Below are positions 18 through 24,419 of a stretch of 64,000 nucleotides of DNA, piece after piece. The stretch lies in IMG/VR virus record IMGVR_UViG_3300037264_001719, positions 1-64,000 of that record, one strand, 5' to 3'. The notes under the pieces were generated by a model. That model was not told the origin of the DNA, searched no databases, and saw only the letters and a list, made by a program, of their open reading frames with translations. Each line of letters begins with the position of its first letter. The first letter of the stretch is position 1. This DNA comes from a virus. The position numbers and the translations under genes were made by a program.

Positions 18-91
18 GGGAGCGTAGTTCAACAGCAGAAGACCCGGTTCTTACCCGGGGGATGAGGGTGCAACTCCCTCCGCTCCCACCA
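18..91 (+). tRNA. tRNA-Lys(CTT)
   Basis: The cloverleaf has acceptor GGGAGCG/CGCTCCC, anticodon stem CCCGG/CCGGG with loop TTCTTAC (anticodon CTT, codon AAG), T stem GAGGG/CCCTC and an encoded CCA. The D-stem closing pair 10:25 is a G-G mismatch. The D loop AACAGCA puts A at position 18 (base 34). The T loop TGCAACT puts G at position 55 (base 70). Normal tRNAs have G18 and T55, so this is one of nine genes here with the swapped A18/G55 combination. Confidence 0.9.
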
Positions 92-99
92 AACTTCAT

Positions 100-183
100 C
101 GCCCCGTGGCGGAACAGCAGACGCGGCGGTTTCAAAAACCGTTGTCGAAAGACGTGGAGGTGCAACTCCTCTCGGGGCGACCA
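100..183 (+). tRNA. tRNA-Leu(CAA)
   Basis: This is a class II tRNA with a long variable arm. The acceptor is CGCCCCG/CGGGGCG, and anticodon stem GCGGT/ACCGT frames loop TTCAAAA (anticodon CAA, codon TTG). CCA is encoded. The D loop AACAGCA has A18 (base 116) and the T loop TGCAACT has G55 (base 162), the non-canonical elbow pair. The methyltransferase on the other strand ends two bases further on. Confidence 0.9.
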
Positions 184-184
184 A

Positions 185-838
185 TTATCCGAAGTCGAGC
201 CAGAACAGCCCGAGTCCGTTGAAGAACAAAGTGCTATTTACTTTTTCGGTGCGGATCGAATGGTCGCTGATGGCTCGTGGTTTCAATTCGTGGATTCCCG
301 CCAAGCCTCCAGTTCTTACGCACTCCCAATTCCAATCATCAATGACGATGATGACTTCCTTGGCGAAGAATCGCTTGAACTCGACCAGTCCTCGTTGGGT
401 GCTTTCGGTGCTATGAAACCCGTCGTAGAAGTAAACGCCGATGGGGAGGTCGAATGGCTTTTCACGCTGGGCGAGTTCAAAGCAGTCAGCATCATAGAGC
501 GTAAATTTTGGAAGCCTATTCTCGAAGCGGGCCACGTTTTCTTTGAATATCCTCCGGCAATCATCCCCGCTTGCCCCCGCTCCTCCGATGAATTTGTCGC
601 ACGCATAGGCTTTGACGCGGAGGTTGTCCAGAAGTGCTCCGATGAGCGTTGCCCCTTGGAAGATGCCCACCTCCAAATACGCCTCGTTGCTCGGGAGGTG
701 CGCGGCGAGAATACTCAGGAGGGTTTGCACTTTTCCCGTAGTTTGCCCAGTCACGCCCGGGGCGCGAACCCAAGGCCCCCGCGTGGCTATGGGGTCGGTG
801 TCTGCGGCGTGAATGGCTTCTGCGAGGATGTTCTTCAT
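185..838 (-). CDS. Class I SAM-dependent methyltransferase (Methyltransf_24/TylF-like)
   Basis: 217 aa when started at MKNILAEA. That ATG overlaps the stop of the radical SAM gene as ATGA, so the two are translationally coupled; an upstream in-frame ATG exists but would lie deep inside the neighbour. The glycine-rich SAM loop is EVGIFQGATL. The motifs YFYDGFHSTES and IVIDDWNWE match the family with an acidic DD-W signature. The protein is a clear paralogue of the methyltransferase at 61734-62417, sharing LPSNE.Y.EVG, GVYFYDG and DDWNW. The substrate is not readable from sequence. Relatives often O-methylate sugars or small molecules, which would suit the sugar genes here, and the radical SAM partner may supply or share the substrate. 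Confidence 0.8.
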   Translation of the reverse strand: MKNILAEAIHAADTDPIATRGPWVRAPGVTGQTTGKVQTLLSILAAHLPSNEAYLEVGIFQGATLIGALLDNLRVKAYACDKFIGGAGASGDDCRRIFKENVARFENRLPKFTLYDADCFELAQREKPFDLPIGVYFYDGFHSTESTQRGLVEFKRFFAKEVIIVIDDWNWECVRTGGLAGIHELKPRAISDHSIRTEKVNSTLFFNGLGLFWLDFG

Positions 839-1938
839 ATGTAGTTGATGTGCTTGGCGTCCGGGGAGATGGCGTAGTTGATGAAGCGGTTCTTGTTGTT
901 GAACATACAGCGGGCGCACGAGTGGGCGTCGAACTTCTTGAAGTCCTTCTCCTTTGCCTCACTCGGCCAGAAATCCTTGAATCGCTGCTTGGAGATGTCC
1001 CCGTATTCGCCTAGCGAGTTGTAGGCCGTGTTGCAACAGCGGTACACCTTGAGGTCGCCTCCGATGTACACGTTCAGGTGCATATAGGCACAGAACGAGT
1101 AGTCGGGGCGTTGCTGCTTGAGATCGTTGATCCGGTCGTCGAAGAGATTGAAGACCTTGAATTTGGGGCTGGCGAAGTCTGCGACGGCTTTCCGCGCCAT
1201 CGCCGTTGCCACCTCGAAGTGGGGCTTGTGGTACTCGAAGTCGTCCTGCGTGAAGGCGGCGCTGATTCGGAAGTTGTCGGCCCCGCTCGCCTTCGCCAGT
1301 TCCGCGCACTCGTAGATTTCGTTGTGGTTGTCCCGGGTGATGACAAAGCCCACTCCGAGGAGAGTCTTCTCGGATTTCGTTTCTGCGATCCTTCGGATGT
1401 TGTCCCACGTCCGCTGGAAGAAGCTGGCGGGGACCTTGCGGGTCCATGCGTAAGTGGTTTCCCTCCCGGCATCCACGCTCACGCGAATCCATGCGGCGCG
1501 GGACAGGGGCTTGAGCATCTTGTCGGGGACCAGCGTCCCGTTCGTTACGAGGGCGAGATCGAGATTCCGCTCAATGACGGCCTCGAATATTTCGGTCGCC
1601 TTCGGATGGACGGTCGGCTCCCCGCCCCCGGTGATCTGGATGGCGGGAATCCCCATCGTCACGAAGTCATCCAGAATCTCGATGCACTTCTCGTAGGGGA
1701 TCATCCGGTTGGGGTTGTTATTGACCGCTTCCGTGACTGGATCGACAGTTCCGAAGTGCTGATTCGAGGTGTACCCTTCGAGCCTGTAGGCACAGAAGTT
1801 GCAACTGTGATTGCAGAGATCGGAGATGATGAGTTGGACTTGAATCGGGATGGGCTGTTTTCCGGCCTTCATCTCGGCCAGCTTTTCGGGGTGGTGAACA
1901 ATCTTGAAAGGGCTGTAGGGGTCGGTATTCAAGTCCAT
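835..1938 (-). CDS. Radical SAM protein with SPASM-like C-terminus
   Basis: 367 aa. The radical SAM cluster motif CxxxCxxC is at C42, C46 and C49, and the SAM-binding GGGEP is at about 104-108. Later cysteines (C283, C301/C302 and the C341-C344 pair) resemble a SPASM or twitch auxiliary Fe-S site. Family members perform 5'-deoxyadenosyl radical chemistry on peptides, sugars or tRNA; nothing here fixes the substrate. It is the first gene of a two-gene minus-strand unit sitting between + strand tRNAs. It lacks a ribosome binding site: a TATAAT lies six bases upstream of the ATG, which suggests a leaderless start. Confidence 0.85.
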   Translation of the reverse strand: MDLNTDPYSPFKIVHHPEKLAEMKAGKQPIPIQVQLIISDLCNHSCNFCAYRLEGYTSNQHFGTVDPVTEAVNNNPNRMIPYEKCIEILDDFVTMGIPAIQITGGGEPTVHPKATEIFEAVIERNLDLALVTNGTLVPDKMLKPLSRAAWIRVSVDAGRETTYAWTRKVPASFFQRTWDNIRRIAETKSEKTLLGVGFVITRDNHNEIYECAELAKASGADNFRISAAFTQDDFEYHKPHFEVATAMARKAVADFASPKFKVFNLFDDRINDLKQQRPDYSFCAYMHLNVYIGGDLKVYRCCNTAYNSLGEYGDISKQRFKDFWPSEAKEKDFKKFDAHSCARCMFNNKNRFINYAISPDAKHINYI

Positions 1939-1944
1939 GTGGGA

Positions 1945-1950
1945 ATTATA
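1945..1950 (-). promoter_or_regulatory. -10 element for the radical SAM/methyltransferase unit
   Basis: Read on the minus strand, TATAAT is followed by TCCCAC and the ATG at 1938. Transcription should begin at or next to the ATG, which fits the absence of a ribosome binding site. The best -35 at 17-bp spacing is a weak TTTCGC inside the flanking tRNA-Leu gene. Confidence 0.5.
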
Positions 1951-1958
1951 GCTTTTAT

Positions 1959-2046
1959 GGGCGTGTGGCGAAACCAGCAGACGCGCTAGGCTCAGAACCT
2001 AGTGGGCTAAAAACCCGTAGAGGTGCAACTCCTCTCACGCCTACCA
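1959..2046 (+). tRNA. tRNA-Leu(CAG)
   Basis: This is a class II tRNA. Acceptor GGGCGTG/CACGCCT has a G1:T72 wobble. Anticodon stem CTAGG/CCTAG holds loop CTCAGAA (anticodon CAG, codon CTG). A long variable arm is present and CCA is encoded. D loop AACCAGCA gives A18 (base 1976) and T loop TGCAACT gives G55 (base 2025). Confidence 0.88.
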
Positions 2047-2055
2047 AAATTACAT

Positions 2056-2132
2056 AGCAGGGGAGTGGAACGGAATCCATGCTGGCCTCATAAGCCATGC
2101 GATAGCAGGTTCGACTCCTGTCCCTGCTTCCA
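2056..2132 (+). tRNA. tRNA with CAT anticodon (Met, or Ile if lysidine-modified)
   Basis: Acceptor AGCAGGG/CCCTGCT is followed by TCCA. The anticodon stem TGGC/GCCA holds loop CTCATAA. D loop ACGGAA keeps GG at 18-19 and T loop TTCGACT keeps T55, so the elbow is canonical, unlike most neighbours. Sequence alone does not separate elongator Met from Ile2 (lysidine at C34). It ends exactly one base before the next tRNA begins. Confidence 0.82.
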
Positions 2133-2206
2133 CCCCGGTTAGTTCAACAGCAGAACGCCTGTCCTACACACAGGAGGTAGGGGTGCAACTCCCTTACCGG
2201 GGACCA
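2133..2206 (+). tRNA. tRNA-Val(TAC), with C33
   Basis: Acceptor CCCCGGT/ACCGGGG, anticodon stem CCTGT/ACAGG and loop CCTACAC give anticodon TAC. The base before the anticodon is C rather than the near-invariant T33. Shifting the loop by one to restore T33 destroys the stem, so the reading stands but the isotype is less certain. D loop AACAGCA has A18 (base 2149) and T loop TGCAACT has G55 (base 2185). CCA is encoded. Confidence 0.72.
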
Positions 2207-2214
2207 AAATTCAT

Positions 2215-2302
2215 GCGGGCGTGGCGGAACTGGCAGACGCACGAGTTTGAGGGACTCGTGGGCTTTAAGCCCGTGCAGGTTCAATTCCTGTCGCCCGCAC
2301 CA
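2215..2302 (+). tRNA. tRNA-Leu(GAG)
   Basis: This is a class II tRNA. The acceptor is GCGGGCG/CGCCCGC; anticodon stem CGAGT/ACTCG has loop TTGAGGG (anticodon GAG, codons CTC/CTT). D loop AACTGGCA keeps G18G19 and T loop TTCAATT keeps T55, so the elbow is canonical. It reads CTC, the leucine codon that dominates the structural genes of this phage. Confidence 0.92.
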
Positions 2303-2310
2303 ATCTTTTC

Positions 2311-2386
2311 CGGGCTGTAGGGTAGGAGTCAACCCGCCTCATTCGGGGTGAGGAGATCGTGGGTGCGAATCCCACCAGCCCGACCA
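2311..2386 (+). tRNA. tRNA-Pro(CGG)
   Basis: Acceptor CGGGCTG/CAGCCCG, D stem GGGT/ACCC and anticodon stem CCTCA/TGAGG with loop TTCGGGG give anticodon CGG. T stem GTGGG/CCCAC has loop TGCGAAT. D loop AGGAGTCA aligns with A18 at base 2327, and G55 is base 2365. CCA is encoded. Confidence 0.9.
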
Positions 2387-2395
2387 ATCTTTCAG

Positions 2396-2469
2396 GGGCC
2401 GTTAGCTCAACGGTAGAGCGACCGCCTCATAAGCGGGCGACGAGAGATCGACACTCTCACGGCCCACCA
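2396..2469 (+). tRNA. Second tRNA with CAT anticodon (Met or Ile2)
   Basis: Acceptor GGGCCGT/ACGGCCC, D stem GCTC/GAGC and anticodon loop CTCATAA give CAT. D loop AACGGTA keeps G18G19. The T loop ATCGACA keeps T55, though T54 is replaced by A. The elbow is therefore canonical at 18:55. One of the two CAT tRNAs is probably Met and the other may be Ile2. Confidence 0.85.
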
Positions 2470-2476
2470 AATTTCG

Positions 2477-2566
2477 AGGGATGCCGCCGGATATATAGAA
2501 GAAGGCGGTGTGCCGAATCGGGATAGCGTCCTTCGGGGCGACGATTTGGATTTCTGGAACGTCCCT
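2477..2566 (+). ncRNA. Structured RNA candidate inside the tRNA cluster (not a tRNA)
   Basis: A 7-bp closing helix pairs AGGGATG (2477-2483) with CGTCCCT (2560-2566). Inside are hairpin CCGCC (2484-2488)/GGCGG (2504-2508) and helix CCGAATC (2513-2519)/GATTTGG (2543-2549). The second helix encloses CGTCC (2527-2531)/GGGCG (2536-2540), capped by a TTCG tetraloop. There is no T arm, no recognisable anticodon arm and no CCA. It occupies a tRNA-sized slot and may be processed like its neighbours. The pairing comes from reading the sequence; function is unknown. Confidence 0.5.
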
Positions 2567-2571
2567 CCCTA

Positions 2572-2647
2572 CAGGCTCAAGGGTAGATAGCGACCCGCCT
2601 GCCTTGGAAGCAGGAGCAGGAACGTGCAAGTCGTTCGAGCCTGACCA
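2572..2647 (+). tRNA. tRNA-Pro(TGG)
   Basis: Acceptor CAGGCTC/GAGCCTG, D stem GGGT/ACCC and anticodon stem CCTGC/GCAGG with loop CTTGGAA give TGG. T stem GAACG/CGTTC has loop TGCAAGT. D loop AGATAGCG aligns A18 to base 2589 and ends in G rather than A21. G55 is base 2626. CCA is encoded. Confidence 0.88.
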
Positions 2648-2661
2648 AATTTGAACGACTC

Positions 2662-2690
2662 TGGACGGAGGGCTTTCACCGTGGTACTCT
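2662..2690 (+). promoter_or_regulatory. Sigma70-like promoter before the DUF2589 cluster
   Basis: TGGACG (2662-2667), a 17-bp spacer and TACTCT (2685-2690) lie between the last tRNA of the cluster and the ATG at 2718, which has its own GGAGAG ribosome site. Confidence 0.5.
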
Positions 2691-2717
2691 CTGTAGGTCC
2701 CCTTATAGGAGAGTGCC

Positions 2718-3365
2718 ATGCCCGATCTCGCCAACCCAATCGGCGGAATTCTGAACAGCCTCCCGATGGAGGTGATGATCTCGAAGCCGCTGATGGGAGC
2801 GGTGGACGCGCACAAGGCGATGTGCCTCCAGTTGGCGGACTTCATCGACAAGATCGGGTTCATCGAGGTCGGCGGGACGCCCGCGCAGGGCGCGACCCCT
2901 GCGGTTCTGGGCGTCAAGTCCGTCCGCATGGTGGACTGGAAGTGGAAGGCTCCCGCGTGGAACCAACTCGGGACCACCGAAGAACTCGACAAGGACGGAA
3001 AGCCCACGGGCAAGACACTCGCGCCCGTGCAGTACGAGGCGCAAGTCCCCTTCATCTCGATGGTCCCCCTGCCTGCGCTCGGCGTGGACAAGGTGACGGT
3101 GGACTTCGAGCTTGAGGTCAGCACCTCCGAGTCCTCCTCTTCCTCCACGGCGGCAGAGGGGTCGATGGCCGGGTCGGTCGGCTTCGGGTGGTTCTCGGCC
3201 AGTTTCTCGGCCAAGGTCTCCCACAAGAGCGAGCAAACCCGGAAGACGGACACGCGGGCCAAGTATAGTTTCCACGTCGAAGCGTCCCAGCACGAGCCGC
3301 CCGAGGCGCTCATGCGGATGATCGACATGGTTGTGGACACGGTGACGAAGCCCAAAGCCGCGTAA
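2718..3365 (+). CDS. DUF2589-type protein
   Basis: 215 aa. The N-terminal segment (ISKPLMGAVDAHKAMCLQLADF) followed by a beta-rich half matches the DUF2589 family by eye. A serine run near residue 135 precedes an alternating beta region ending in a short helix. No signal peptide or membrane segment is visible. It is the first of three adjacent genes (2718-4210) behind a promoter; the third gene shares its N-terminal plan. The family has no established biochemical role, so no function is assigned. Confidence 0.65.
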   Translation: MPDLANPIGGILNSLPMEVMISKPLMGAVDAHKAMCLQLADFIDKIGFIEVGGTPAQGATPAVLGVKSVRMVDWKWKAPAWNQLGTTEELDKDGKPTGKTLAPVQYEAQVPFISMVPLPALGVDKVTVDFELEVSTSESSSSSTAAEGSMAGSVGFGWFSASFSAKVSHKSEQTRKTDTRAKYSFHVEASQHEPPEALMRMIDMVVDTVTKPKAA

Positions 3366-3371
3366 TCTCGT

Positions 3372-3632
3372 GTGCCTGAACTAACAACGGTTGACGGCGC
3401 GAAGGTCGCAGTCTACGTTCGGACGCGATTCCGGTTGGGCGATGGCATCTTCTCCGTCAAACGGGTCAAACTGGAGACCGTCGCGGCACGGGCGGGCGGC
3501 ACAACGCCCGTCGTAATGTGCGTGTTTGAGGGCGGCATCCCCCCGGAGTTCCTCAAGGTCGCGGTGGGCACGGAGGTTCCGTTTCCCGGTGATGTAGTGG
3601 CGACGATGATTGCGAAGGGTCAGAGAAAGTGA
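3372..3632 (+). CDS. Small protein of the DUF2589 cluster
   Basis: 86 aa from a GTG start six bases after the preceding stop. The protein is mostly beta-strand-like (VAVYVRTRFRLGDG, VVMCVFEGGIPPEF). I do not recognise a family. Its stop overlaps the GTG of the next gene (GTGA), so the three genes are read as a unit and the products may form one assembly. Confidence 0.65.
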   Translation: MPELTTVDGAKVAVYVRTRFRLGDGIFSVKRVKLETVAARAGGTTPVVMCVFEGGIPPEFLKVAVGTEVPFPGDVVATMIAKGQRK

Positions 3633-4210
3633 AATTCTGGACTTTTCGGAAGAAGAAAGAATCCGCCCCACCTGTTGACGGGCAGACGCTCCCCGACATC
3701 GTTCGCGGGATGCAACACGCGGTCAACACGGCCCAGCAGATTCTCCAACAGCATTGGCGCGACACGCTCGACCCGTACTTTGATGATGCGACCGGAGAGC
3801 CTGTCACGCAAAAGTACAAGCTCCCCTCCGGCCACGTCATCGAGATGCCGCTCATCGCCCTCGTCCAACCACAGGGTCTCGCGCTCGATCACATGGAGAT
3901 CGAGATGTCGGTGCGGATCGACCAGACGGAGGTGAAGCCCCATCGGTCTGCCTCACAGGAAGAGACCCATCAGCATCGGACGAGCTTCAAGTGCTCTTTC
4001 GCTCCGGTCAAGAACAAGGAAGACCGAGCCCTGAACTCGGTGATGGTCAAGATGATCTTCAAGGCGGGCGATCCCCCCGAGGCCGTTGCCCGGCTTATCG
4101 AGGAGTTCACCAATACGACCATGCCCCGGGCGGATAGTGGGCCGAAGACCGCAGGCGGGGAGCCTCCCGTGACACCCCCAACGCCCCCGGATAAGGGGCC
4201 GATGGTATAG
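3629..4210 (+). CDS. DUF2589-like protein
   Basis: 193 aa from a GTG start overlapping the upstream stop. After a basic N-terminus, a helical segment (LPDIVRGMQHAVNTAQQIL) and a proline-containing stretch (MPLIALVQPQGLALDHMEIE) precede beta strands; the order resembles the gene at 2718. The last 35 residues are proline-rich and probably disordered. It closes the three-gene cluster. Function is unknown. Confidence 0.6.
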   Translation: MKFWTFRKKKESAPPVDGQTLPDIVRGMQHAVNTAQQILQQHWRDTLDPYFDDATGEPVTQKYKLPSGHVIEMPLIALVQPQGLALDHMEIEMSVRIDQTEVKPHRSASQEETHQHRTSFKCSFAPVKNKEDRALNSVMVKMIFKAGDPPEAVARLIEEFTNTTMPRADSGPKTAGGEPPVTPPTPPDKGPMV

Positions 4211-4216
4211 TGGGCC

Positions 4217-5038
4217 ATGCCCGACAAGATTCTTGTATTCGGAAATGGCTGGATCGGAAGGCGGATCGCGGAGGAGTTCCGAGCCCAAACCGTTCGATCT
4301 GACATCACCGACCGGAGTGCGATCAGGACTGTGCTGGACGCACTATCGCCAACGGTCGTTGTCAATGCGGCGGGGAAGACCGGAAGGCCCAACATCGACG
4401 GATGTGAGGACGAGCCCGCGCAAACGCTCTCGGTGAACACCGCCGGGCCGATTCTTCTGGCCGAAGAGTGTCTCGCCCGGGACATCTTCATGGTCCATCT
4501 CGGGAGCGGATGCGTGTACGACGCATCTCGCTCCGGGTACACCGAGGAGGACTCTCCGAACTTCTCGGGGAGCATCTACAGCAGGTCTAAGGCACTCTCC
4601 GAGGCTGCGCTCAAGAATCTTCCGGTCCTCCAGTTGAGGATTCGGATGCCCTTCGATGGGATGCCCCATCCAAGGAATTTCATAACCAAGCTCGTCGGAT
4701 ACCCGAGGGTCATCGACGTTCCCAACTCGCTGACCTACATTGACGACTTCATCGTGGCGACGGAGTGCCTCATCGCGGACAGGAAGACCGGGGTGTGGAA
4801 CATCGTCAACCCCGGAGCGGTGTCCCATTCGGAAGTGCTCGGCCTCTACCAGAAGATAGTAGACCCGAATCACACGTTCGAGGTCATGCCCGTTGAGGAG
4901 TTGTCCAAGATCACCAGAGCGGGCAGGTCGAACTGTCTGCTGGACACGGGAAAGTTGGAGCGCGAGGGGATCAAGATGCGGCCTGTCACGGTCGCGTTGA
5001 TCGAAGCTCTCAAGAAATACAAAGAGAGGATCGCGTGA
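4217..5038 (+). CDS. RmlD-like NAD(P)-dependent sugar-nucleotide reductase/epimerase
   Basis: 273 aa, an extended short-chain dehydrogenase fold. The cofactor loop is VFGNGWIGRRI at residues 7-17; VVVNAAG follows, then the active-site pair YSRSK. The size and the abbreviated N-terminal motif fit RmlD-type (dTDP-4-dehydrorhamnose reductase-like) proteins better than full epimerases. It starts a run of sugar genes (to 6769). A TATAGT five bases before the ATG could give a leaderless transcript. The exact sugar is unknown. Confidence 0.8.
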   Translation: MPDKILVFGNGWIGRRIAEEFRAQTVRSDITDRSAIRTVLDALSPTVVVNAAGKTGRPNIDGCEDEPAQTLSVNTAGPILLAEECLARDIFMVHLGSGCVYDASRSGYTEEDSPNFSGSIYSRSKALSEAALKNLPVLQLRIRMPFDGMPHPRNFITKLVGYPRVIDVPNSLTYIDDFIVATECLIADRKTGVWNIVNPGAVSHSEVLGLYQKIVDPNHTFEVMPVEELSKITRAGRSNCLLDTGKLEREGIKMRPVTVALIEALKKYKERIA

Positions 5039-5121
5039 CTAAGATCAACGGCTGGTGGACGGACGCGGGCACGTTCGACTCCCCCCTCCACGACAACAAG
5101 GTCATCGCCGGATCGGAGTAG
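5035..5121 (+). pseudogene. 28-codon frame resembling the C-terminal end of a sugar nucleotidyltransferase
   Basis: A GTG overlapping the RmlD-like stop opens a 28-residue frame containing GWWTDAGTFDS and ending in TAG. The WTDAGTF.S element resembles the end of glucose-1-phosphate thymidylyltransferase-type enzymes (WLDTGT or W.DAGT near the C-terminus). The rest of such an enzyme is absent nearby, so this looks like a remnant left by deletion, or a chance short frame. Confidence 0.35.
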
Positions 5122-5123
5122 TC

Positions 5124-5333
5124 GTGCATCAAGATCGGTTCGCGCTCTGGCTCGTCGGGATGTGCGTGGCGACTCTCTGCTTCGGAGAGGTGTACGCGAC
5201 GGTCTTGGGGAAGCCTCACTCGGAAATTTTCGACGCCACGCTCGGGAGCCTCCTCGGGTACTTCATCGGAAGATCAGTCCGGCCAAACAAGCCGGAAGAC
5301 CCGAAGCTCGAAGGCCCGAAGCCCCCGGAGTAA
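5124..5333 (+). CDS. Small membrane protein
   Basis: 69 aa from a GTG two bases after the preceding stop. Residues about 6-24 (ALWLVGMCVATLCFGEVYA) and a second region around LGSLLGYFIG look membrane-embedded. The tail is charged and proline-rich (RPNKPEDPKLEGPKPPE). It could be an inner-membrane accessory of the sugar cluster or a small holin-like protein. No family is recognised. Confidence 0.55.
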   Translation: MHQDRFALWLVGMCVATLCFGEVYATVLGKPHSEIFDATLGSLLGYFIGRSVRPNKPEDPKLEGPKPPE

Positions 5334-5339
5334 GCTACA

Positions 5340-6104
5340 ATGAGTTCGATGAATTTCTCCAAGGACGTTCGGACGCTTTCGGTGTTTAGCCATCCGAACC
5401 ATGAACTCGCAATCTTCGGGATCATCCAGAGAGTCCGCCCCCATCTCCTCTACCTCACGGACGGAGGGGGCGAGGAGCGCGTGAAGGAGACCCGGAACGG
5501 GCTGGCCCGTCTTGGGCTTCTCGATCAGGCGACCTTCCTCCCCTATTCCGAGCAGTCGTTCTACGATGCGCTCCTCAGTCGGGACGTTCTCTTCTTCTCG
5601 GAAGTTCGGGATGCCATCCGATCCCGGTACAGGGCGGTCCTTCCCGAGCAGATCACCTGCGACGCGGTGGAGTTCTACAATCCGGTCCACGACATCGCGC
5701 TCCCCCTCGTCATCTCGGCGGTTGGGGGCCAGAGGAATGTCTTTGAGGCTCCGCTCATCTATCAGCGGGAGGACGGGAACTTCGGAGTCCAGATCGCCCC
5801 GCCGGAACTTAGGGATGGGCAGTCTGAGATGAAGCTCACCGACGAGGAGGCACTCCAGAAAAGAAAGGCGCTCGAAGAGGACTATCATATCCTGCGGTAC
5901 ACCCTCGGGCACGTTCTTCTCCGAGCATCCCACGCCTTCATTCAGGAAGTTGTGCTTCCGGCAAGCTCCCCGCTTGCGTCTCCGGCGGGTCGAGTTGTGC
6001 GGTACGATCTCCGGGCCAAGAAGCTCAAGAGCGAAGGGAAGGTTGCCCGGGAGATCACGCGGGAGGGGCATTACCTTCCGCTCGCCCGGCAGTTCCTCGG
6101 ATGA
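5340..6104 (+). CDS. PIG-L/LmbE-like protein (putative deacetylase)
   Basis: 254 aa. The start resembles the LmbE zinc motif: LSVFSHPNHE in place of the usual HPDDE, so the first metal ligand pair is altered to H..HE. A later FYNPVHD could supply another ligand. Family members remove N-acetyl groups from sugars such as GlcNAc derivatives. Its place between the RmlD-like gene and a glycosyltransferase agrees with sugar processing. The altered motif leaves activity uncertain. Confidence 0.5.
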   Translation: MSSMNFSKDVRTLSVFSHPNHELAIFGIIQRVRPHLLYLTDGGGEERVKETRNGLARLGLLDQATFLPYSEQSFYDALLSRDVLFFSEVRDAIRSRYRAVLPEQITCDAVEFYNPVHDIALPLVISAVGGQRNVFEAPLIYQREDGNFGVQIAPPELRDGQSEMKLTDEEALQKRKALEEDYHILRYTLGHVLLRASHAFIQEVVLPASSPLASPAGRVVRYDLRAKKLKSEGKVAREITREGHYLPLARQFLG

Positions 6105-6769
6105 CCCTCTTTATACCGAGGGTCTTTCATCGGGTGTGGCTTGGCGGGCCGATGCCACGGGAAATGATTGCGTGGGGCGAAAGCTGGCTCAAGCATCACC
6201 CCGGTTGGACTCTCAAGACGTGGGGGGAGAAGAATCTCCCGAAGCTCGTCAATCTCAACCTGTTTTCTAAGTGCTCTTGCCTTGGGCAGCAGGCCGATCT
6301 TGTCCGATACGAAGTCCTGCTTCAAGAGGGCGGGGTTTACGTCGATGCCGACGTGGAGTGCGTTCGGAACATCGAGCCACTCATCGAGGGCTGTCTGTTC
6401 TTCGCTCTCCGGCGAGACCCGAGAGTGATGGACCTTCGGGTCGAGAGCCACTCGAATGCCTTCTTCGGTTCGATCTTCGGGCATCCCATCATGCGGGACC
6501 TCGTGCAGAATTTGAGGCGGGCGTTCCGTCCTCAGCCGTGGACAGCCATTGGCCCGCCCTACTTTTCCTCCATCCTTGGGGGGCATCCCGGGAAGTTTCT
6601 TGATCTTCCGAGCCGGATCGTCCTCGACCTCAACAAGGGCGAGAGGCCCAAGCCCGGACGCCGTGCGGTCCCCGGAAACGTCTATGCCGTGAACTATCAC
6701 TCCTCGAAGTGGATTCCCTCTTCGATGGAGTCTCTCCGAAAGAATTTCTCTTCGTTTCCTAGACGATAA
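6101..6769 (+). CDS. GT32-type glycosyltransferase
   Basis: 222 aa, overlapping the upstream stop by ATGA. The N-terminal IPRVFHRVWLGGPMP and the segment QADLVRYEVLLQEGGVYVDADVE carry the DxD nucleotide-sugar/metal site of the Gly_transf_sug (GT32/OCH1) family. A soluble cytoplasmic enzyme is expected, with no membrane segment. It is the last gene before the tRNA-Arg trio, which starts on the next base. The acceptor could be virion protein, host surface or phage DNA; sequence does not say. Confidence 0.8.
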   Translation: MTLFIPRVFHRVWLGGPMPREMIAWGESWLKHHPGWTLKTWGEKNLPKLVNLNLFSKCSCLGQQADLVRYEVLLQEGGVYVDADVECVRNIEPLIEGCLFFALRRDPRVMDLRVESHSNAFFGSIFGHPIMRDLVQNLRRAFRPQPWTAIGPPYFSSILGGHPGKFLDLPSRIVLDLNKGERPKPGRRAVPGNVYAVNYHSSKWIPSSMESLRKNFSSFPRR

Positions 6770-6843
6770 CTCTCCGTGGTGTAGCAGATGCACGGCGGTT
6801 TCCTAAACCGCAAGGCTCGGCGCGACTCCGAGCGGAGAGACCA
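6770..6843 (+). tRNA. tRNA-Arg(CCT)
   Basis: Acceptor CTCTCCG/CGGAGAG, D stem GTGT/GCAC and anticodon stem GCGGT/ACCGC with loop TTCCTAA give CCT (codon AGG). T loop CGCGACT has C54 and G55 (base 6822). D loop AGCAGAT has A18 (base 6786). CCA is encoded. The roughly 107 bases that follow hold no gene I can support. Confidence 0.9.
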
Positions 6844-6950
6844 AAATTGACGAGACCGTACCGCTCTGTGTCGGGGACACCCTCCCGGCCCGCATGATGA
6901 AATCCGGTGGAAGGAGAGAACCAAGCGGGCCTGCGGCCTCGAAAAATTTC

Positions 6951-7024
6951 TCCCGATGGTGTAGCAGATGCACGTCAGTCTCCGAAACTGAAAGGGCAGG
7001 TGCGACCCCTGCTCGGGAGACCAT
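6951..7024 (+). tRNA. tRNA-Arg(CCG)
   Basis: Acceptor CTCCCGA/TCGGGAG, D stem GTGT/GCAC and anticodon stem TCAGT/ACTGA with loop CTCCGAA give CCG (codon CGG, frequent here). D loop AGCAGAT has A18 (base 6967), T loop TGCGACC has G55 (base 7003), and CCA is encoded. Confidence 0.92.
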
Positions 7025-7027
7025 TCC

Positions 7028-7103
7028 TCCCCGTGGTCCAACTAGATAAGACGCCGAGCTACGAACTCGGAGATTGGGGGTGCGAGTCCTCCCGGGGAGA
7101 CCA
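7028..7103 (+). tRNA. tRNA-Arg(ACG)
   Basis: Acceptor CTCCCCG/CGGGGAG and anticodon stem CCGAG/CTCGG with loop CTACGAA give ACG, which would need A34-to-inosine editing by host TadA to read CGC. D loop AACTAGATA has A18 (base 7045) and T loop TGCGAGT has G55 (base 7082). CCA is encoded. Confidence 0.9.
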
Positions 7104-7148: not shown

Positions 7149-7760
7149 ATGAACACCGCGAAGATGCTTGAGGCCCCGGTTCTAGTTCTCAACCGGAACT
7201 GGACGCCGATCCATACCACCTCTGTCAAGGAGGCGATCAGCCTCGTGGCGAAGGGGTCTGCCAAGATCATCGACCCGACGACCTTCGAGGCGTTGACCCT
7301 TGCTTCGTGGGATGATGTCTCCAAGTCTCGTGCGAAGTTCGGGGATTCGGTAGTCCGCTCCTGCCACCTCGCGCTGGTTCCGCCCGAGGTCATCGTCCTC
7401 ACCAACTACGACAAGTTGGGCGAGAGGAGCGTCGTCTTCTCCCGGCGCAACCTGTTCAAGAGGGATAGGTACACCTGCCAGTATTGCGGGTGCCAGCCGG
7501 GGCCGAGGGAGTTGACCATCGAGCACGTCTTCCCGAAGTCCCGGGGAGGCGTTTCGTCTTGGACCAACTGCGCTCTCGCCTGCGTCCCTTGCAACAAGCG
7601 GAAGGCCAACCGGACGCCGGAAGAGGCGGGCATGAATCTGCGCCGAGTTCCGAAGAAACCTTCGTGGAAGGCTCTCGCGCAGATTTCGCCTCGGGATCGG
7701 CGCGAGTCGTGGGGGCAGTTCATCTCCCGCGCCTACTGGGAAGTGGAATTGGGGGAGTAG
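7149..7760 (+). CDS. HNH endonuclease
   Basis: 203 aa from the ATG behind AGAGGAG; a longer in-frame start at 7074 would run into the tRNA-Arg and is rejected. The zinc-finger HNH core has C110/C113 (CQYC), LTIEHVFPKSRGG with catalytic H126, N140, and C145/C148 (CVPC) with NKRK. This matches free-standing bacterial and phage HNH proteins whose C-terminus reads RTPEEAGM.L. In phages these act as homing nucleases or assist terminase. It stands alone after the tRNA cluster. Confidence 0.85.
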   Translation: MNTAKMLEAPVLVLNRNWTPIHTTSVKEAISLVAKGSAKIIDPTTFEALTLASWDDVSKSRAKFGDSVVRSCHLALVPPEVIVLTNYDKLGERSVVFSRRNLFKRDRYTCQYCGCQPGPRELTIEHVFPKSRGGVSSWTNCALACVPCNKRKANRTPEEAGMNLRRVPKKPSWKALAQISPRDRRESWGQFISRAYWEVELGE

Positions 7761-9966: not shown

Positions 9967-10455
9967 ATGTCCCTCTTGAAGAAGCCTTCGGCAGACGCGA
10001 CGAGGGAGCGGCGGATGGAAGTCTTCCGCCTCAAGATGCGGGGACTCAATAACACCGCGATCTCTCGCGCCCTCCAAGTCAGCAGGAACACGATCATCCG
10101 AGATTCCGCGTGGCTCGATTCCACAAAGCGGGACTCCGCGATGTCCGCCGACAAGTTCGGTATCCTCGGTGAGACGATGGCCGAACTTGACGAGATCAAG
10201 AAGGAAGCGATGTTCCACTTCAACGAGACGGAGAACGTCCACGGGAAGAACAACTTCCTGCTGACGGCGATCACCGCTCTCGACAAGAAGGTGCGCCTCA
10301 TGATGGATGCGGGCATTATTGATGCCGCCCCCATCGGTGTGAACCTGTCGGTGGAAGATGTCAAGAAGATGAGCACGGGGGAGCTTCTCCAGCGGAGATC
10401 GGAGTTGCTGGACCGTCTCAAGAGCGTCGAGATGCCCGGTGCAACCCGGAACTGA
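9967..10455 (+). CDS. Terminase small subunit-like protein
   Basis: 162 aa. The N-terminal helix-turn-helix (RLKMRGLNNTAISRALQVSR) is typical of small terminases that recognise the packaging site. A central helical region follows, and the C-terminus contains VEDVKKMSTGELLQRRSELL. It overlaps the large subunit by 17 bases. Assignment rests on the HTH, size and position rather than a named family. Confidence 0.7.
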   Translation: MSLLKKPSADATRERRMEVFRLKMRGLNNTAISRALQVSRNTIIRDSAWLDSTKRDSAMSADKFGILGETMAELDEIKKEAMFHFNETENVHGKNNFLLTAITALDKKVRLMMDAGIIDAAPIGVNLSVEDVKKMSTGELLQRRSELLDRLKSVEMPGATRN

Positions 10456-12310
10456 CGCCAAGGGTCTTAGGGACTTCCGAGACACACTCCAAGCTCTCGC
10501 CACACTTGACGGGGAAATCAAGCATCGCAAGGAGGTCGAGGACCCTCTCAACTACGGGCTCCCTGACCTCCTTCGGCCCAAATCCCCCGACGAGACCGAC
10601 ATCCAATTCAAAGCCCGGCAGAACCGGGAACTCAAAGATTTGATGGAGAACAAGCTCTGGTTCTCCAAGGACGCCCGGCGGGTCGAGATCAGACTCGCCC
10701 CGCAAATGATTGACTTCATCGCGGACCTTTTCTATCGAAGGACCCAGCAGGCGATCCTCTGGAAAGGCCGTGGGTCGGGAGGCTCTCTTTCTTCGGCCAT
10801 CCTCATTTGGCTCTCCATCGTCTACCACAAGATGAGCTTCACGATGATGGCGGGCTCGCAGGAGCAGGCCAAGCAGGTCTACCACTACACCAAATCGTTT
10901 TGGGAGTGCTTTCCAAGTTTCGCCAAGGCGATTCTCGACGGGGAGCCGCTTCAGACGGAGACTCGGCTCATCAACGGAGTCCTGCTCAAGATCATCTCGG
11001 CCTCGGAGAAGCAGGCCCGGGGCAAGCACAACCCCGGGTTCGTCGTGGACGAATCCTGTCAGGAAGGCGAGAACACCGACCGGATGATTTCCGCCGCCAT
11101 GCAGGGTGCGATGTCCGAGCCGAACTTCATGGTGCTTGCACTCTCTACGTTCCATCACCCCATCGGACTCTTTCAGGAGCTTTGGGACTTCGCGGATGAG
11201 CGGGGATTCTCCCGGTACAACTGGAACGTCTACGATGCGATGGCGAAGTGCGACGCCGGGATGGAAACGGCGACCGCAGAGGACCCGAAGGCCCTCAAGT
11301 TCTGCCGGACCCAATGCCCGCTCACCGAGAGGGCTCCGGTCTTCGACGATCAGGGCGTTCAGACCGGATGGAAGTTCAAGGGGTGCAACGGGAAGGCCCG
11401 AGATTCGCAGGGCTTCCTTCCCCGGAAGAACGTCATCATCGCCAAGAAGATGAACCGGGGGACCAACGTCTTCGAGATCGAATACGAGAACACCCGACCG
11501 AACTGGATGCGCCCGGTCTACGATGTTGAGTGGATCGAGAGGACGCTCGTAGAACCCGATTGGCCCCCGCCGGGAACTAAGTTCCTTGAGAAGTCGGTCG
11601 GGATTGATTGGGGTCTTGAGGGGCAGACGGCCCTCATCTTCTCCGCGCTTCTCGAAATCCCCAACCCCTCTTCGCCGGAGGAGGCCGTTGCTTTCAAGTT
11701 CATGAAATCACCCCCGTCCGTCAAGTGCGTTGGAATTCTCGAAGCGGAGTTCATGACCGGGAAGCTCACGAGCGAGACCATCCGAATTCTCATGGGGTGG
11801 ATCGAGAAGTACGGACAGGACAATTTCCATGTCTACGCCGACGCGAGCCACCCCTTCAACAATCTCGAAGTCGAGCAGGTCGGGCTCGACATGAATCGTG
11901 TCCTCTTCGCCAAGTGGAAGGACTACGGGATCGGAAGTTGCACCAAATACTTCACGTCCCCGGGGAGATTGTTCATTCGGTCCAACCTCACCGGATTCAC
12001 CGAGCAACTCAAGCGGTACAGGCAGGACAAGTACGGGAAGCCAGTTAAGAAGGACGATCACGGCCCGGACGCGATGCTTTGCGCGATGCTCCACTTTCCT
12101 TTCGAGGAGAAGTTCGCACAGGACTTGGAGCCGACTGACGAAGAACTCGATGGGACCATGATGAATCTCATCCCAAAGCCGATTGCTCCGGGGTTCGAGG
12201 GGATCATCGCGCCGGGGACTGCCGAAATACACGTCCCGCAGGCTCCAGCCAAACAACTGCACATCGTCCGAACAAAACGAACCAGCGATGGACAAGTTGT
12301 GGTAATGTGA
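10439..12310 (+). CDS. Terminase large subunit
   Basis: 623 aa from a GTG start. The ATPase P-loop is deviant: KGRGSGGS at 109-116 has its lysine at the start of the loop, as in lambda-type terminases, and not before the final S/T. Walker B is FVVDES (201-206, D204/E205). The RNase H-like nuclease has D390 (VGIDWGLEG), D468 (YADAS) and D544 (HGPDAM). It cuts and packages the genome into the prohead through the portal. The length is full. It is co-transcribed with the small subunit. Confidence 0.93.
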   Translation: MQPGTDAKGLRDFRDTLQALATLDGEIKHRKEVEDPLNYGLPDLLRPKSPDETDIQFKARQNRELKDLMENKLWFSKDARRVEIRLAPQMIDFIADLFYRRTQQAILWKGRGSGGSLSSAILIWLSIVYHKMSFTMMAGSQEQAKQVYHYTKSFWECFPSFAKAILDGEPLQTETRLINGVLLKIISASEKQARGKHNPGFVVDESCQEGENTDRMISAAMQGAMSEPNFMVLALSTFHHPIGLFQELWDFADERGFSRYNWNVYDAMAKCDAGMETATAEDPKALKFCRTQCPLTERAPVFDDQGVQTGWKFKGCNGKARDSQGFLPRKNVIIAKKMNRGTNVFEIEYENTRPNWMRPVYDVEWIERTLVEPDWPPPGTKFLEKSVGIDWGLEGQTALIFSALLEIPNPSSPEEAVAFKFMKSPPSVKCVGILEAEFMTGKLTSETIRILMGWIEKYGQDNFHVYADASHPFNNLEVEQVGLDMNRVLFAKWKDYGIGSCTKYFTSPGRLFIRSNLTGFTEQLKRYRQDKYGKPVKKDDHGPDAMLCAMLHFPFEEKFAQDLEPTDEELDGTMMNLIPKPIAPGFEGIIAPGTAEIHVPQAPAKQLHIVRTKRTSDGQVVVM

Positions 12311-19100: not shown

Positions 19101-19454
19101 ATGTCGGGGTTGAGTGAAGGCGTCTTCCAGACGGAACACGATTACAAGGAAGGCGCGGACATCGACTTTCCCGTGGGTGCTCGCTATCACCCTTTCTCCG
19201 CGAGAACAGTTCTTTGGGAAGCATCCGCCGCAGGTGCGGTCGATCTTTTCATCGAGGTTGTTGACGGGGATCGCGTGTACGAGATCGACAAAGTTGCTGG
19301 TTTCGCGGGGACGAAGTATTCGTGGCCCAACCAGAGGTCTCCCGAGAAGATGGACCTCGTACCCGCGCAGCGGCTTCGCTTCCGCACCGTGGGGATCGCG
19401 GGCGGCGTGAAGCATTCGGTGGCGATAACTTGGGCGGAACTGGCGGCTCCATGA
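19101..19454 (+). CDS. Small protein coupled to the portal gene
   Basis: 117 aa. It is mostly beta (VDLFIEVVDGDRVYEIDKVAG, RLRFRTVGIAGGVKHSVAITW). Its stop overlaps the portal start as ATGA. It is perhaps a head or decoration protein; the family is unknown. Confidence 0.6.
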   Translation: MSGLSEGVFQTEHDYKEGADIDFPVGARYHPFSARTVLWEASAAGAVDLFIEVVDGDRVYEIDKVAGFAGTKYSWPNQRSPEKMDLVPAQRLRFRTVGIAGGVKHSVAITWAELAAP

Positions 19455-21361
19455 TCGATAAAAACGGAACGACATGGCCGGAGGAGGACGTGCGTAACGC
19501 CGTCCTTCTCAAGAAAGTCGATCCGTCCTCGATGGAAGACCTCGTGAAGGTCATGCTCTTCGGAAAAAGTCACGAGGATGCCGAGAAGACCAGCGAAGCC
19601 GAGATCAAATCCCGCCAGCTTACCGAGGACCCTTTCGGCGCGTTGGCCGCAGGGGAATTCGTCCCCCCGAAGTACAAGCCCGATATTTGGGCGCAGGCTC
19701 CCGCACAGAACACCCGTCTCGCCCGGTGCATCCGCTCTTTCGCTCGGAACACCGTGGGGCTCGGATGGCACATCGAACCGCTTCATCCGGTGACGCCGGA
19801 CACTCCCGAGGAAGAGAAGCGGGAGATCGCGTGGCAGACGGAGGCGCTCCGCACCATCTTCAATTTCCCGAACGAGAAGATGCCCCTCACCGAAACCGCC
19901 TATCTCATGAAGTGGGATGAGGAGGCGACGGGGAACGGGTACTGGGAAGTGGTTCGGAACAACGCTGGAAAAATCACCCGCATCTATCATGCGCCTGCCG
20001 TCACCATGCGGAAGCGCGTCATGAAGGGTGAGGGGGACGGGCTGACGGCGATCTACGGGTTCATCCAGATTCGCGGAAACCAGAAGCGTTATTTCAAGGA
20101 GTTCGGTGACAAGCGCGTGATGAACGCGAAGACGGGGAAGTGGCACGACGGAGAATCTTCGCTCCCCCCGGAGGATCGGGCAACGGAGATCGTCCCCTTC
20201 CTCATTTACGATCCGACCTCCTCCTACTATGGTGCGCCCCGCTACGTCCCGTCCTCGACGGCCATCGCGGGGAATCGTCAGTCGGCTCTCCGCAACGTGA
20301 CCTTCTTCGAGAACGATGCGGTGCCGCGCATGGCCCTCCTCGTCTCCGGCGGGCGTCTCACGCAGGAGTCCACTCAGCAGATCGAGGACTTCATGCGCGG
20401 GAAGGGGAAGGGCGGCGGGGATCAGGTCCACCGGGTCATGATTATCCAAGTGGAGCCCTCGAAGATCGGCTTCCAGCAGCAGAACAAAACGATGGTGGAG
20501 TTGAAGCCGCTCACCGTGGGCGTCACCGAGGACGCGAGCTTCCAGACCTACCGCGCAGCCAACGACGAAGAGGTGCGAGAGGTCTTCGGGCTTGCGCCCG
20601 TCTTCTTCTCGACGGAGAACGTCAACAAGGCTTCGGCGGCGGTCTCCCGCGAGATCACCAACGAGCAGGAGTTCGAGCCCGACCGTCTCGCCAAGGAATA
20701 CATCATCAACCAGACCATTGTGTCGGACATCCTCTGCGCCCTGATGGGGAACAACCCCATGACCGAGGACGAGCCCGACGCTATGGTGGAATACCGGAAG
20801 AAGATCAGGGTGCAGTTCCGGTTCGCCCGGCTCACCCTCACCGATCCGCTCGATCAGGCGAGAATGGACCAGATTTACGCCTCGCTCGGGGCCATGACGC
20901 CGAACGAACTCCGCGAACGGATCGGGAAGCCCCCGTTCCCCAAGGATTTCTTCTTCGCGGACAAGCCGCTCCCGATTGCGATGGCGGAACTTTCAGCGAG
21001 CCTCGCCCTCGTCATCGAACTCAAGGACGAACAGAAATTCCCGCCGCCGCCTGCCGCGCAAGGAGCGCCGGGGGCGGAAGGAATGCCCCTGCCGGACGGC
21101 ATTGAGCCGATGGGCGGCGATGAACCTCCGCAGGGGGCGCAGGTCGAAGCGCCGTCTCCCGGGGAGTCGCCGGAGATGCCGAATCCGCAGGACAATCCGA
21201 GGCCCTCGGAACCCAAAACTGCGCGTGCGAATTTTTCCAGAAGAAGCTCGAAAATGTCCCCGGGAGTTTTGTATGCTATCGCGTCGGACCTGATGGCAGA
21301 CGCTCGGAGATTGGCGACTTCCTTCAACAGTATCCGAGACGGAGGGAGAAACGATGAGTAG
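19451..21361 (+). CDS. Portal protein (PBSX-like)
   Basis: 636 aa from the ATG overlapping the upstream stop; the longer frame to 19322 has no support. Portal features: RLARCIRSFARNTVGLGW near residue 90; a clip/stem region with AVPRMALLVSGGRL; and EVREVFGLAPVFFSTENVNKASA followed by ITNEQEFEPDR, the signature of PBSX/HK97-type portals. It forms the dodecameric DNA entry vertex and docks terminase, then the connector. The C-terminal ~120 residues are Pro-rich and basic, and overlap the protease gene by eight bases. Confidence 0.85.
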   Translation: MIDKNGTTWPEEDVRNAVLLKKVDPSSMEDLVKVMLFGKSHEDAEKTSEAEIKSRQLTEDPFGALAAGEFVPPKYKPDIWAQAPAQNTRLARCIRSFARNTVGLGWHIEPLHPVTPDTPEEEKREIAWQTEALRTIFNFPNEKMPLTETAYLMKWDEEATGNGYWEVVRNNAGKITRIYHAPAVTMRKRVMKGEGDGLTAIYGFIQIRGNQKRYFKEFGDKRVMNAKTGKWHDGESSLPPEDRATEIVPFLIYDPTSSYYGAPRYVPSSTAIAGNRQSALRNVTFFENDAVPRMALLVSGGRLTQESTQQIEDFMRGKGKGGGDQVHRVMIIQVEPSKIGFQQQNKTMVELKPLTVGVTEDASFQTYRAANDEEVREVFGLAPVFFSTENVNKASAAVSREITNEQEFEPDRLAKEYIINQTIVSDILCALMGNNPMTEDEPDAMVEYRKKIRVQFRFARLTLTDPLDQARMDQIYASLGAMTPNELRERIGKPPFPKDFFFADKPLPIAMAELSASLALVIELKDEQKFPPPPAAQGAPGAEGMPLPDGIEPMGGDEPPQGAQVEAPSPGESPEMPNPQDNPRPSEPKTARANFSRRSSKMSPGVLYAIASDLMADARRLATSFNSIRDGGRNDE

Positions 21362-23036: not shown

Positions 23037-24419
23037 ATGAACGCAGTCGCCAAGGGAACCCTGAACGAGGAACTCATCGAGAAGACCATCGCCACGAGCG
23101 ATCTTCTCACGGGCGGGTTGCTGAACCCGGTTCAGCAGACGCAATTCGTCACGCTCGTCAAGAAGTTCTCGGTTCTGCTTCCGCAGAGCCGATTCATCCG
23201 TATGCCCCGTCCGCTCATGGACATCGACAAGCTCTGGATCGGTGAGCCTGTCACCGAGTCCGTGGACGAGGCGACCGACACGGGCAACCTGTCCCGCGCC
23301 AAGTTCCAGCGCATCGTCCTGCGGGCGCAGAAGCTCCGCAGCGCGTGGAACATCACGACCGAGGTGTTGCAGGGCAACATCGAGCAGAACGAGTTCGAGC
23401 AGACCATCATGAACACGATGGTCGAGCGCATCTCGACCGACATGGAAGACCTCGCCATCAACGGCGACGTGACCACGGTCGGCACCTCGCCCCGCGACCG
23501 CCTCCTGCGCCGTCTCAACGGCTGGAACCTCCAGACCGAAGGGGCGCACCTCGTCGATGTCAAGGGCGCGTCGATCCAGAAGGGCATCTTCTCGGAGATG
23601 AAGCGCCGGATGCCCAAGCAGTACAAGAACGACCCGGGCCTTCGCTGGATCGTGGGCGACGCCGTGGCGACGGACTGGGCGGATGTCGTGTCCGACCGGG
23701 GTACGATCCTCGGTGACGCGGCCCTGCAAGGCGCGGAGATGTCCCCCCTCGGGACGCCGCTCGTCCGCATCCCCCTCATCCCCGACGACGCCCCCATCAC
23801 CATCACGCAGGCGACGAGCGCGGAGTTCCTCGGCTCCGAGTTCCAGCCCTACATCATCACGTCCTCCAACGACACCATCAAGCTCCGGGTGGACGGCCTT
23901 CCGGCGCTCGGCGTGACCATCGTGCTGTCGCACGGCACGCTCAACGCGGTCGAGGTCGCCCGGCAGATCAACGCCGCGCTCAAGGCGGCGATCCCGACCC
24001 TGCTCGTGGACGTGGCGCGGGATGACCGCGAAGGGCGGCTCCTGCTCGTCAGCCCGACCATCGGCGCGGCTTCGAGCCTCCGGCTCATGCCCGTCGCGGC
24101 GGCGTCTCAGGCGTACACGACGCTCGGCCTGTTGGGTCCGAACTCGATCCCGGTGGACCCGTTCCCGGCGGCGGACGTGTTGAAGACGGGCGCGGCCTCC
24201 GGCACCCCGAACACGGTGTTCGAGGGGTCGTTCATGTGGCTCGTGAACCCGAAGAACTTCATCTGGGGCATCCTCGACGGAACCCGCATCTTCACGGAGT
24301 TCAACAAGAACACGGACCAGATCGAGACCATCGTCTACAATCAGGTAGACGCGCAGGTGGAGAACGTGGACGCCATCGTGAAGTGCAAGAACATCCGTCG
24401 CCGCACGCTCATCCTGTAG
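23037..24419 (+). CDS. Major capsid protein (HK97 fold) with inserted beta domain
   Basis: 460 aa. The N-terminal arm and E-loop-like strands are followed by the spine helix region (EQTIMNTMVERISTDMEDLAINGD) and a P-domain core. The core resumes at about 385 with GTPNTVFEGSFMWLVNPKNFIWGI and ends RRRTLIL. Residues about 273-367 form a separate beta module with the pattern of flagellin-hook IN/sheath-like repeats: NDTIKLRVDGLP, GTLNAVEVARQINAAL, GRLLLVSPTIGAASSLRLM. The insert probably projects from the capsid surface. Strong ribosome site and downstream hairpin. Confidence 0.85.
   Translation: MNAVAKGTLNEELIEKTIATSDLLTGGLLNPVQQTQFVTLVKKFSVLLPQSRFIRMPRPLMDIDKLWIGEPVTESVDEATDTGNLSRAKFQRIVLRAQKLRSAWNITTEVLQGNIEQNEFEQTIMNTMVERISTDMEDLAINGDVTTVGTSPRDRLLRRLNGWNLQTEGAHLVDVKGASIQKGIFSEMKRRMPKQYKNDPGLRWIVGDAVATDWADVVSDRGTILGDAALQGAEMSPLGTPLVRIPLIPDDAPITITQATSAEFLGSEFQPYIITSSNDTIKLRVDGLPALGVTIVLSHGTLNAVEVARQINAALKAAIPTLLVDVARDDREGRLLLVSPTIGAASSLRLMPVAAASQAYTTLGLLGPNSIPVDPFPAADVLKTGAASGTPNTVFEGSFMWLVNPKNFIWGILDGTRIFTEFNKNTDQIETIVYNQVDAQVENVDAIVKCKNIRRRTLIL

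Follow-up and report, generated by a model that had tools for sequence, protein, structure and literature searches.

Within the first 7.1 kb of the IMG/VR virus record IMGVR_UViG_3300037264_001719, nine of twelve transfer RNA (tRNA) genes carry A18 and G55 at the elbow contact of the D and T loops, in place of the usual G18 and T55. The stretch analysed, referred to here as the window, covers positions 1 to 64,000 of this 82,331-base record. The remaining three genes are G18:T55, none of the twelve is mixed, and G19 is found with C56 in all of them. The favoured explanation, held with moderate confidence on the strength of sequence comparison, is that the nine would be working spare tRNAs whose alternative elbow needs no modification, the new pair having arisen by compensatory change at both positions in sets that work independently of the host's elbow modifications.

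Genes were located with ARAGORN, with Infernal cmscan against RF00005 and by reading the sequence by hand. Each program reported 10 tRNA genes, the union of the two was 11, and the twelfth, tRNA-Pro(TGG), was missed by both and found by hand. All lie on the plus strand and bring 11 different anticodons (CAT twice) into 7 kb. Full-length cmscan alignments were obtained for 10/12 genes at 40.6 to 60.6 bits, above the RF00005 gathering score of 29 bits. In the Infernal alignment, positions 18-19 are A-G and positions 54-56 are T-G-C in seven genes also called by ARAGORN: tRNA-Lys(CTT) (18-91; D-loop AACAGCA, T-loop TGCAACT), tRNA-Leu(CAA) (100-183) and tRNA-Leu(CAG) (1959-2046), both with a long variable arm, tRNA-Val(TAC) (2133-2206), tRNA-Pro(CGG) (2311-2386), tRNA-Arg(CCG) (6950-7023) and tRNA-Arg(ACG) (7027-7103; D-loop AACTAGATAA, read as A18-G19). 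The eighth, tRNA-Arg(CCT) (6770-6843; C54, D-loop AGCAGAT, T-loop CGCGACT), was called only by ARAGORN of the two finders; A18 and G55 are thus given by alignment and gene models in eight genes and by hand in the ninth, tRNA-Pro(TGG) (2572-2647), in which all stems are paired, the D-loop is AGATAGCG, the T-loop is TGCAAGT and CCA is encoded. G18-G19 and T55-C56 are found in a CAT tRNA at 2056-2132 (2056-2129 by Infernal, with the encoded CCA read from the sequence) and, by both programs, in tRNA-Leu(GAG) (2215-2302) and a second CAT tRNA (2396-2469; A54). An earlier note on this DNA had described a phage tRNA set of nine A18:G55 genes, three G18:T55 genes and no mixed gene, and covariance-model alignment, ARAGORN and hand reading agree on that tally. 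The D-stem mismatches that it listed in tRNA-Lys and tRNA-Arg(ACG) are marked in the Infernal alignment, the array does stand on a contig with tailed-phage genes, and its remark that TruB has no target in the nine genes follows from the missing U55.

A reading of the A18:G55 pair as peculiar to this phage did not hold: the pair recurs in other phages, in spare arrays of Verrucomicrobiota and in initiator tRNAs of Patescibacteria. IMG/VR, scanned for the pattern of this T-arm with this D-loop, gave at least 120 stretches, with more than 100 tRNAs of most isotypes among the matches listed, which rules out a peculiarity of this phage. When tRNA queries were run in BLAST to look for A18:G55 among close relatives of known phages, most of the matches were short tRNA stretches. 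Hits in a Listeria phage and in Rctr197k proved to be canonical.

A sample unselected for the elbow was assembled from IMG/VR scans in which position 55 was left free and the targets were tRNAs of the CAT, Asn and Arg(NCG) types (2,074 distinct tRNAs, 333 loci). Because C56 was fixed in the CAT scan, the main sources for rates of 19:56 swaps are bystander tRNAs and those scans that allowed N at 56. ARAGORN and the scan patterns need standard T-stems, so odd tRNAs may be more frequent than these rates, which are minimum values for them; the loci are also short. In the CAT scan, G55 was present in 5/123 matches, none of which had GG in the D-loop (0/5), while GG was found in 116/118 T55 matches. 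Over the whole sample, 1,999 of 2,074 tRNAs were T55C56, with GG present in 1,936. The 20 G55C56 tRNAs had AG (A18-G19) in 20/20 and GG in 0/20, the 30 T55T56 tRNAs had GA (G18-A19) in 30/30, the seven T55A56 tRNAs had GT (U19) in 6/7 and the two T55G56 tRNAs had GC (C19) in 2/2. The 15 C55C56 tRNAs had GG in 13/15; phage tRNAs with C55 in TCCGA T-loops and G18-G19 (L494, L442, L452, L297 and others) represent a further alternative at position 55. About 3% of the 2,074 tRNAs thus have a covarying elbow swap. In a larger set, to which loci selected for A18:G55 also contributed, G55G56 was accompanied by AC in 6/6, and the predicted partner was present in 42/47 tRNAs with a base other than C at 56; shuffling the D-loops among these 47 gave 15.9 on average and 27 at most. 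The dinucleotide cross-tables and the shuffle test together indicate that 18:55 and 19:56, the two D-T pairs, are each swapped through coordinated changes of both partners. At pair 54:58, U:A was found in 1,585 and A:U in 46 of 1,666 tRNAs. Some Lys tRNAs appear to have swapped U8:A14 for A8:U14, some of them with A54:U58 as well (L081, L130, L141, L086, L176).

Chance is excluded as the source of the window's A18:G55 genes, because G55 occurs in only about 1% of phage tRNAs unselected for it and yet comes with A18 every time (20/20). An error of alignment or detection deserves a hearing, since D-loop length varies and the assignment of position 18 depends in part on the alignment. Position 55 is unambiguous in a 7-base T-loop, however, Infernal agrees with a dinucleotide test that tolerates offsets, and the cross-table of 2,074 tRNAs refutes such an artefact, the probability of which is taken as negligible.

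Cellular genomes were searched with a narrow pattern (84,980 genomes), which gave 29 stretches, several of them chance matches. Most of the real matches are chromosomal arrays of Verrucomicrobiota in which nearly every isotype is A18:G55, carried by Geminisphaera colitermitum, other Opitutales, Prosthecobacter and other Verrucomicrobiaceae, and an Akkermansia bin. At most sites examined these arrays adjoin genes for RtcB, an RlaP nucleotidyltransferase, TROVE or HNH proteins, RtcB being present at most arrays. Among orthologues in this phylum G55 is kept while positions 57, 59 and 60 and the stems vary. Three phyla were then sampled for the G55 T-arm pattern: Verrucomicrobiota, Patescibacteria and Pseudomonadota. 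In 79 Verrucomicrobiota genomes the one array that it matched was in Geminisphaera; a further five matches were scattered, compared with three for the reversed control, and the T55 pattern had 1,212. In Patescibacteria, 24/96 genomes were matched, and the matches read were initiator tRNA genes (1:72 mismatch) with A18:G55, a few other tRNAs and 3' ends of transfer-messenger RNA (tmRNA) genes. Initiator-type CAT tRNAs with A18:G55 were read at L517, L518, L520, L523, L531, L533 and L534, and ARAGORN called a tmRNA at 6/9 loci of the tmRNA type. In Pseudomonadota, 5/100 genomes were matched (six matches, four for the reversed control), and a tRNA was called only in the SAR11 genome that had seeded the sample. 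The tmRNA genes of Patescibacteria with a G55 T-loop (GGTGCRANTCC; L515, L516, L519, L524, L528, L530) have CAG on the D-loop side in some cases and CGG in others. Among phage CAT tRNAs with G55, a 1:72 mismatch was observed in 38/50.

The earlier note had also judged the genes unlikely to be pseudogenes and held that simple copying of one arm does not account for them, and the wider sample bears out both points. Stem pairing, T33, R37, G53-C61 and an encoded CCA occur at equal frequency in G55 and T55 phage tRNAs. Relaxed selection, under which these would be decaying tRNA genes or decoys with no part in translation, could draw on A8 in place of U8 and on G21 in tRNA-Pro(TGG), and on the D-stem mismatches in tRNA-Lys and tRNA-Arg(ACG). 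It is very improbable given this equal integrity, the perfect 18:55 covariation, the use of A18:G55 in chromosomal initiator tRNA genes and the conservation of A18:G55 in tRNA-Arg(ACG) of L005, a relative sharing 71% of terminase residues. Comparison by hand of that gene with its window counterpart showed that T-stem pair 50:64 has changed from G-C to U-A, a compensatory change; tRNA-Arg(CCT) and tRNA-Arg(CCG) of L005 are G18:T55.

Spread of one A18:G55 ancestor through the set by duplication or gene conversion of its arms is suggested by the strings AACAGCAGA and GGTGCAACTCC, which are common to several window genes. This too is improbable: the D- and T-loops differ in sequence and length, the window Leu genes retain their long variable arms, and for 46 viral G55 tRNAs the nearest relative outside both loops, taken from a different contig, has T55 and the same anticodon. 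All viral G55 tRNAs that lie closer to a same-anticodon T55 tRNA than to any G55 tRNA together involve 23 anticodons. This nearest-relative comparison, which is not based on trees, indicates many independent switches between G18:T55 and A18:G55, the exact number not being claimed. Among 20 swap-rich phage loci no common set of three proteins was found in the 2-15 kb examined (20 kb for the window), and therefore, as far as is visible, these loci are not one lineage. A search for a shared protein partner of the swap-rich arrays gave no clear candidate (HNH, 3/20 versus 5 others, p = 0.02 before correction).

The compensatory reading rests on covariation, recurrence in different isotypes, integrity and presence in essential-type (initiator) tRNA genes, all of which are established at the level of sequence. 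Under it, the D and T loops would dock through A18 with G55 instead of G18 with uridine or pseudouridine at 55, and G19-C56 would be kept. The A18-G55 geometry would replace the single-bond G18-U55 contact and hold the loops together, and any Watson-Crick 19:56 pair would supply the flat face. Swapped tRNAs would carry neither methylated G18 (Gm18) nor pseudouridine-55, because the target bases are missing, and would need neither TruB nor G18 methylation; they would nevertheless be charged and used. Phage and reserve sets would have to work in bursts or in damaged cells, independently of host elbow modifications, and because of this independence a compensating change to a modification-free pair, following a change of one base, could be accepted and then held. 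The whole set would top up or replace host tRNAs during infection.

Compensatory change is favoured over evasion, in which a host defence or stress factor (a nuclease, a nucleotidyltransferase or a modification-dependent toxin) would read the standard elbow and the swapped spare set would resist it. Evasion, which takes in the roles suggested as possible in the earlier note (escape from host nucleases or from modification-dependent control), is regarded as possible but rather unlikely. It is in keeping with the rescue of translation by phage tRNAs when a defence cuts host tRNAs (PMC12409363; PMC7824862), with the near-complete swapped sets that adjoin RNA-repair genes in Verrucomicrobiota and with the proportion of 9/12 in this phage compared with the background of about 1%. 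Two observations weigh against compensation alone. Swaps at 19:56 in T55 tRNAs cluster at phage loci that also have A18:G55 (34/572 versus 2/556 at other loci, p = 1.4e-8), a comparison that is suggestive, since the way the loci were chosen also favours array-rich ones; the clustering speaks for evasion and points to a driver at the level of the genome, not to compensation by chance. In addition, the Verrucomicrobiota arrays are nearly all swapped and the ordinary tRNAs of the phylum are not, which would fit selection for being different. Against evasion, most other phages have just one or two swapped genes per array of 10-25 tRNAs, which argues against a simple all-or-none form of it, and no partner gene is clearly enriched near swap-rich phage arrays. 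Reserve arrays are unswapped on Mycolicibacterium and Variovorax plasmids and swapped in only 2/20 tRNAs on a Nostoc plasmid, AriB, a tRNA-cutting defence, works without TruB (PMC12409363), and no elbow-reading attacker has been identified. A more specific proposal, offered tentatively and considered doubtful, is that the elbow serves as a password: conflict factors would inactivate tRNAs with G18:U55 and G19:C56, and the sets of phages and RNA-repair islands would escape by swaps that keep the fold.

Directly downstream of the tRNA array lies an HNH endonuclease gene (7149-7760, plus strand), homologues of which were found at Verrucomicrobiota arrays, at phage tRNA arrays and at arrays of Nostoc, Mycolicibacterium and Variovorax plasmids; homologues with no array within the flank examined were found at L286, L287, L292 and L293. 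In having many isotypes and an HNH neighbour, the window array resembles reserve (trn-type) arrays. In Anabaena, TrcR keeps a 26-gene tRNA operon repressed together with rtcB and the HNH gene all8564, a repression that translational stress lifts (PMC10272220); in jumbo phages, tRNAs co-occur with the RtcB, RlaP and TROVE repair genes (PMC7824862). Because of the HNH homologues at other arrays, the Anabaena operon and the jumbo-phage repair genes, the window array is assigned, by analogy, to the reserve or replacement tRNA sets. The HNH protein was considered as a partner specific to A18:G55 and rejected, as its gene also stands beside unswapped arrays (Mycolicibacterium, Variovorax, Synechococcus phage S-CBWM1 and Tunturi_5). 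As judged from their sequences, the elbow swap is an optional feature of reserve sets and not part of their definition, because A18:G55 occurs in 2/20 tRNAs of the Nostoc plasmid array and in none in the Mycolicibacterium, Variovorax, S-CBWM1, Tunturi_5 and Mx1 arrays.

The contig encodes a tailed-phage gene set, by which the array is placed in a phage genome: a terminase large subunit (10439-12310, plus strand), a portal (19322-21361), a virion protein (23037-24419) and a tail sheath (28562-30574). No tRNA was found in the remaining 18 kb of the record, and RtcB, RlaP and TROVE had no match in the 82-kb record, which is a fragment. Pfam analysis of the record's tail region gave an ADP-ribosylglycohydrolase, a dual-specificity phosphatase and a VWA/metallopeptidase protein; the ADP-ribosylglycohydrolase-like protein is encoded at 64373-65704 of the record (L001:373-1704), and a Peptidase_C14 (caspase-domain) protein at 60283-61218 of the window. 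Methyltransferase-like and radical SAM/SPASM genes lie inside the tRNA cluster on the minus strand (185-1938), and two DUF2589 proteins are encoded between the tRNA groups (2718-3365 and 3629-4210). Elsewhere, tRNAs with Leu anticodons and a short variable loop of class I size were seen in arrays (L278, L279, L282) and at phage loci (L040, L061), and among Leu tRNAs of phages the loop is short in about 40%. A short tRNA that has a GCT anticodon and A18:G55 is conserved in Fermentithermobacillaceae-like Bacillota (L145:4051-4126, L153:2713-2788); Ser tRNAs usually belong to class II.

An elbow contact regarded as invariant, and as carrying a chemical modification in almost every organism, is evidently exchangeable. 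Covarying replacements at 18:55, 19:56 and 54:58 in functional-looking tRNAs separate the elbow contacts that matter as shape from those that matter as identity, and a natural swapped set offers a direct test of the purpose of pseudouridine-55 and Gm18. Swapped tRNAs are candidate modification-independent scaffolds, and the elbow may be an unexplored target in phage-host conflict over tRNA. Such genes are overlooked by tRNA finders, as with tRNA-Pro(TGG) here.

No earlier report of these swaps ("A18-G55") was found in the open-access literature searched. In the canonical elbow, residue 18 intercalates in the T-loop and is joined to 55 by a single hydrogen bond; the flat face on which the ribosome and others stack is provided by the Watson-Crick pair 19:56 (PMC4810234). 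G18-pseudouridine-55 and G19-C56 count as near-universal, and no other tRNA modification is held to be as universal as pseudouridine-55 (PMC7912444). The swapped tRNAs share with canonical tRNAs the cloverleaf, the 7-base T-loop, G53-C61, U54-A58 in most cases and, in the nine window genes, G19-C56. They differ in that 18:55 in the window is A:G, with no site for TruB or G18 methylation, and in that other phage tRNAs have A:U, U:A or C:G at 19:56 and may have A:U at 54:58. Phage-encoded tRNAs that counter tRNA-cutting defences, such as T5 tRNA-Lys against AriB of the PARIS system, are likewise spare tRNAs able to replace attacked host tRNAs, but the escape changes known for them lie in the anticodon arm, close to where it is cut (PMC12409363), whereas the change in the window lies in the elbow and affects most isotypes. 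The trn operon of Anabaena and Nostoc plasmids similarly joins tRNAs of many isotypes and an HNH gene in one array (PMC10272220), but in the Nostoc plasmid array examined 18/20 tRNAs are G18:U55, whereas the window array belongs to a phage, is A18:G55 in 9/12 genes and has no RtcB match in 82 kb. The tRNAs for pyrrolysine and selenocysteine (tRNA-Pyl, tRNA-Sec) and those of mitochondria also depart from G18, G19 and T-pseudouridine-C (PMC7609411); in these the D-T contact is changed or lost, whereas the phage swaps appear to keep it by covarying pairs within an ordinary cloverleaf.

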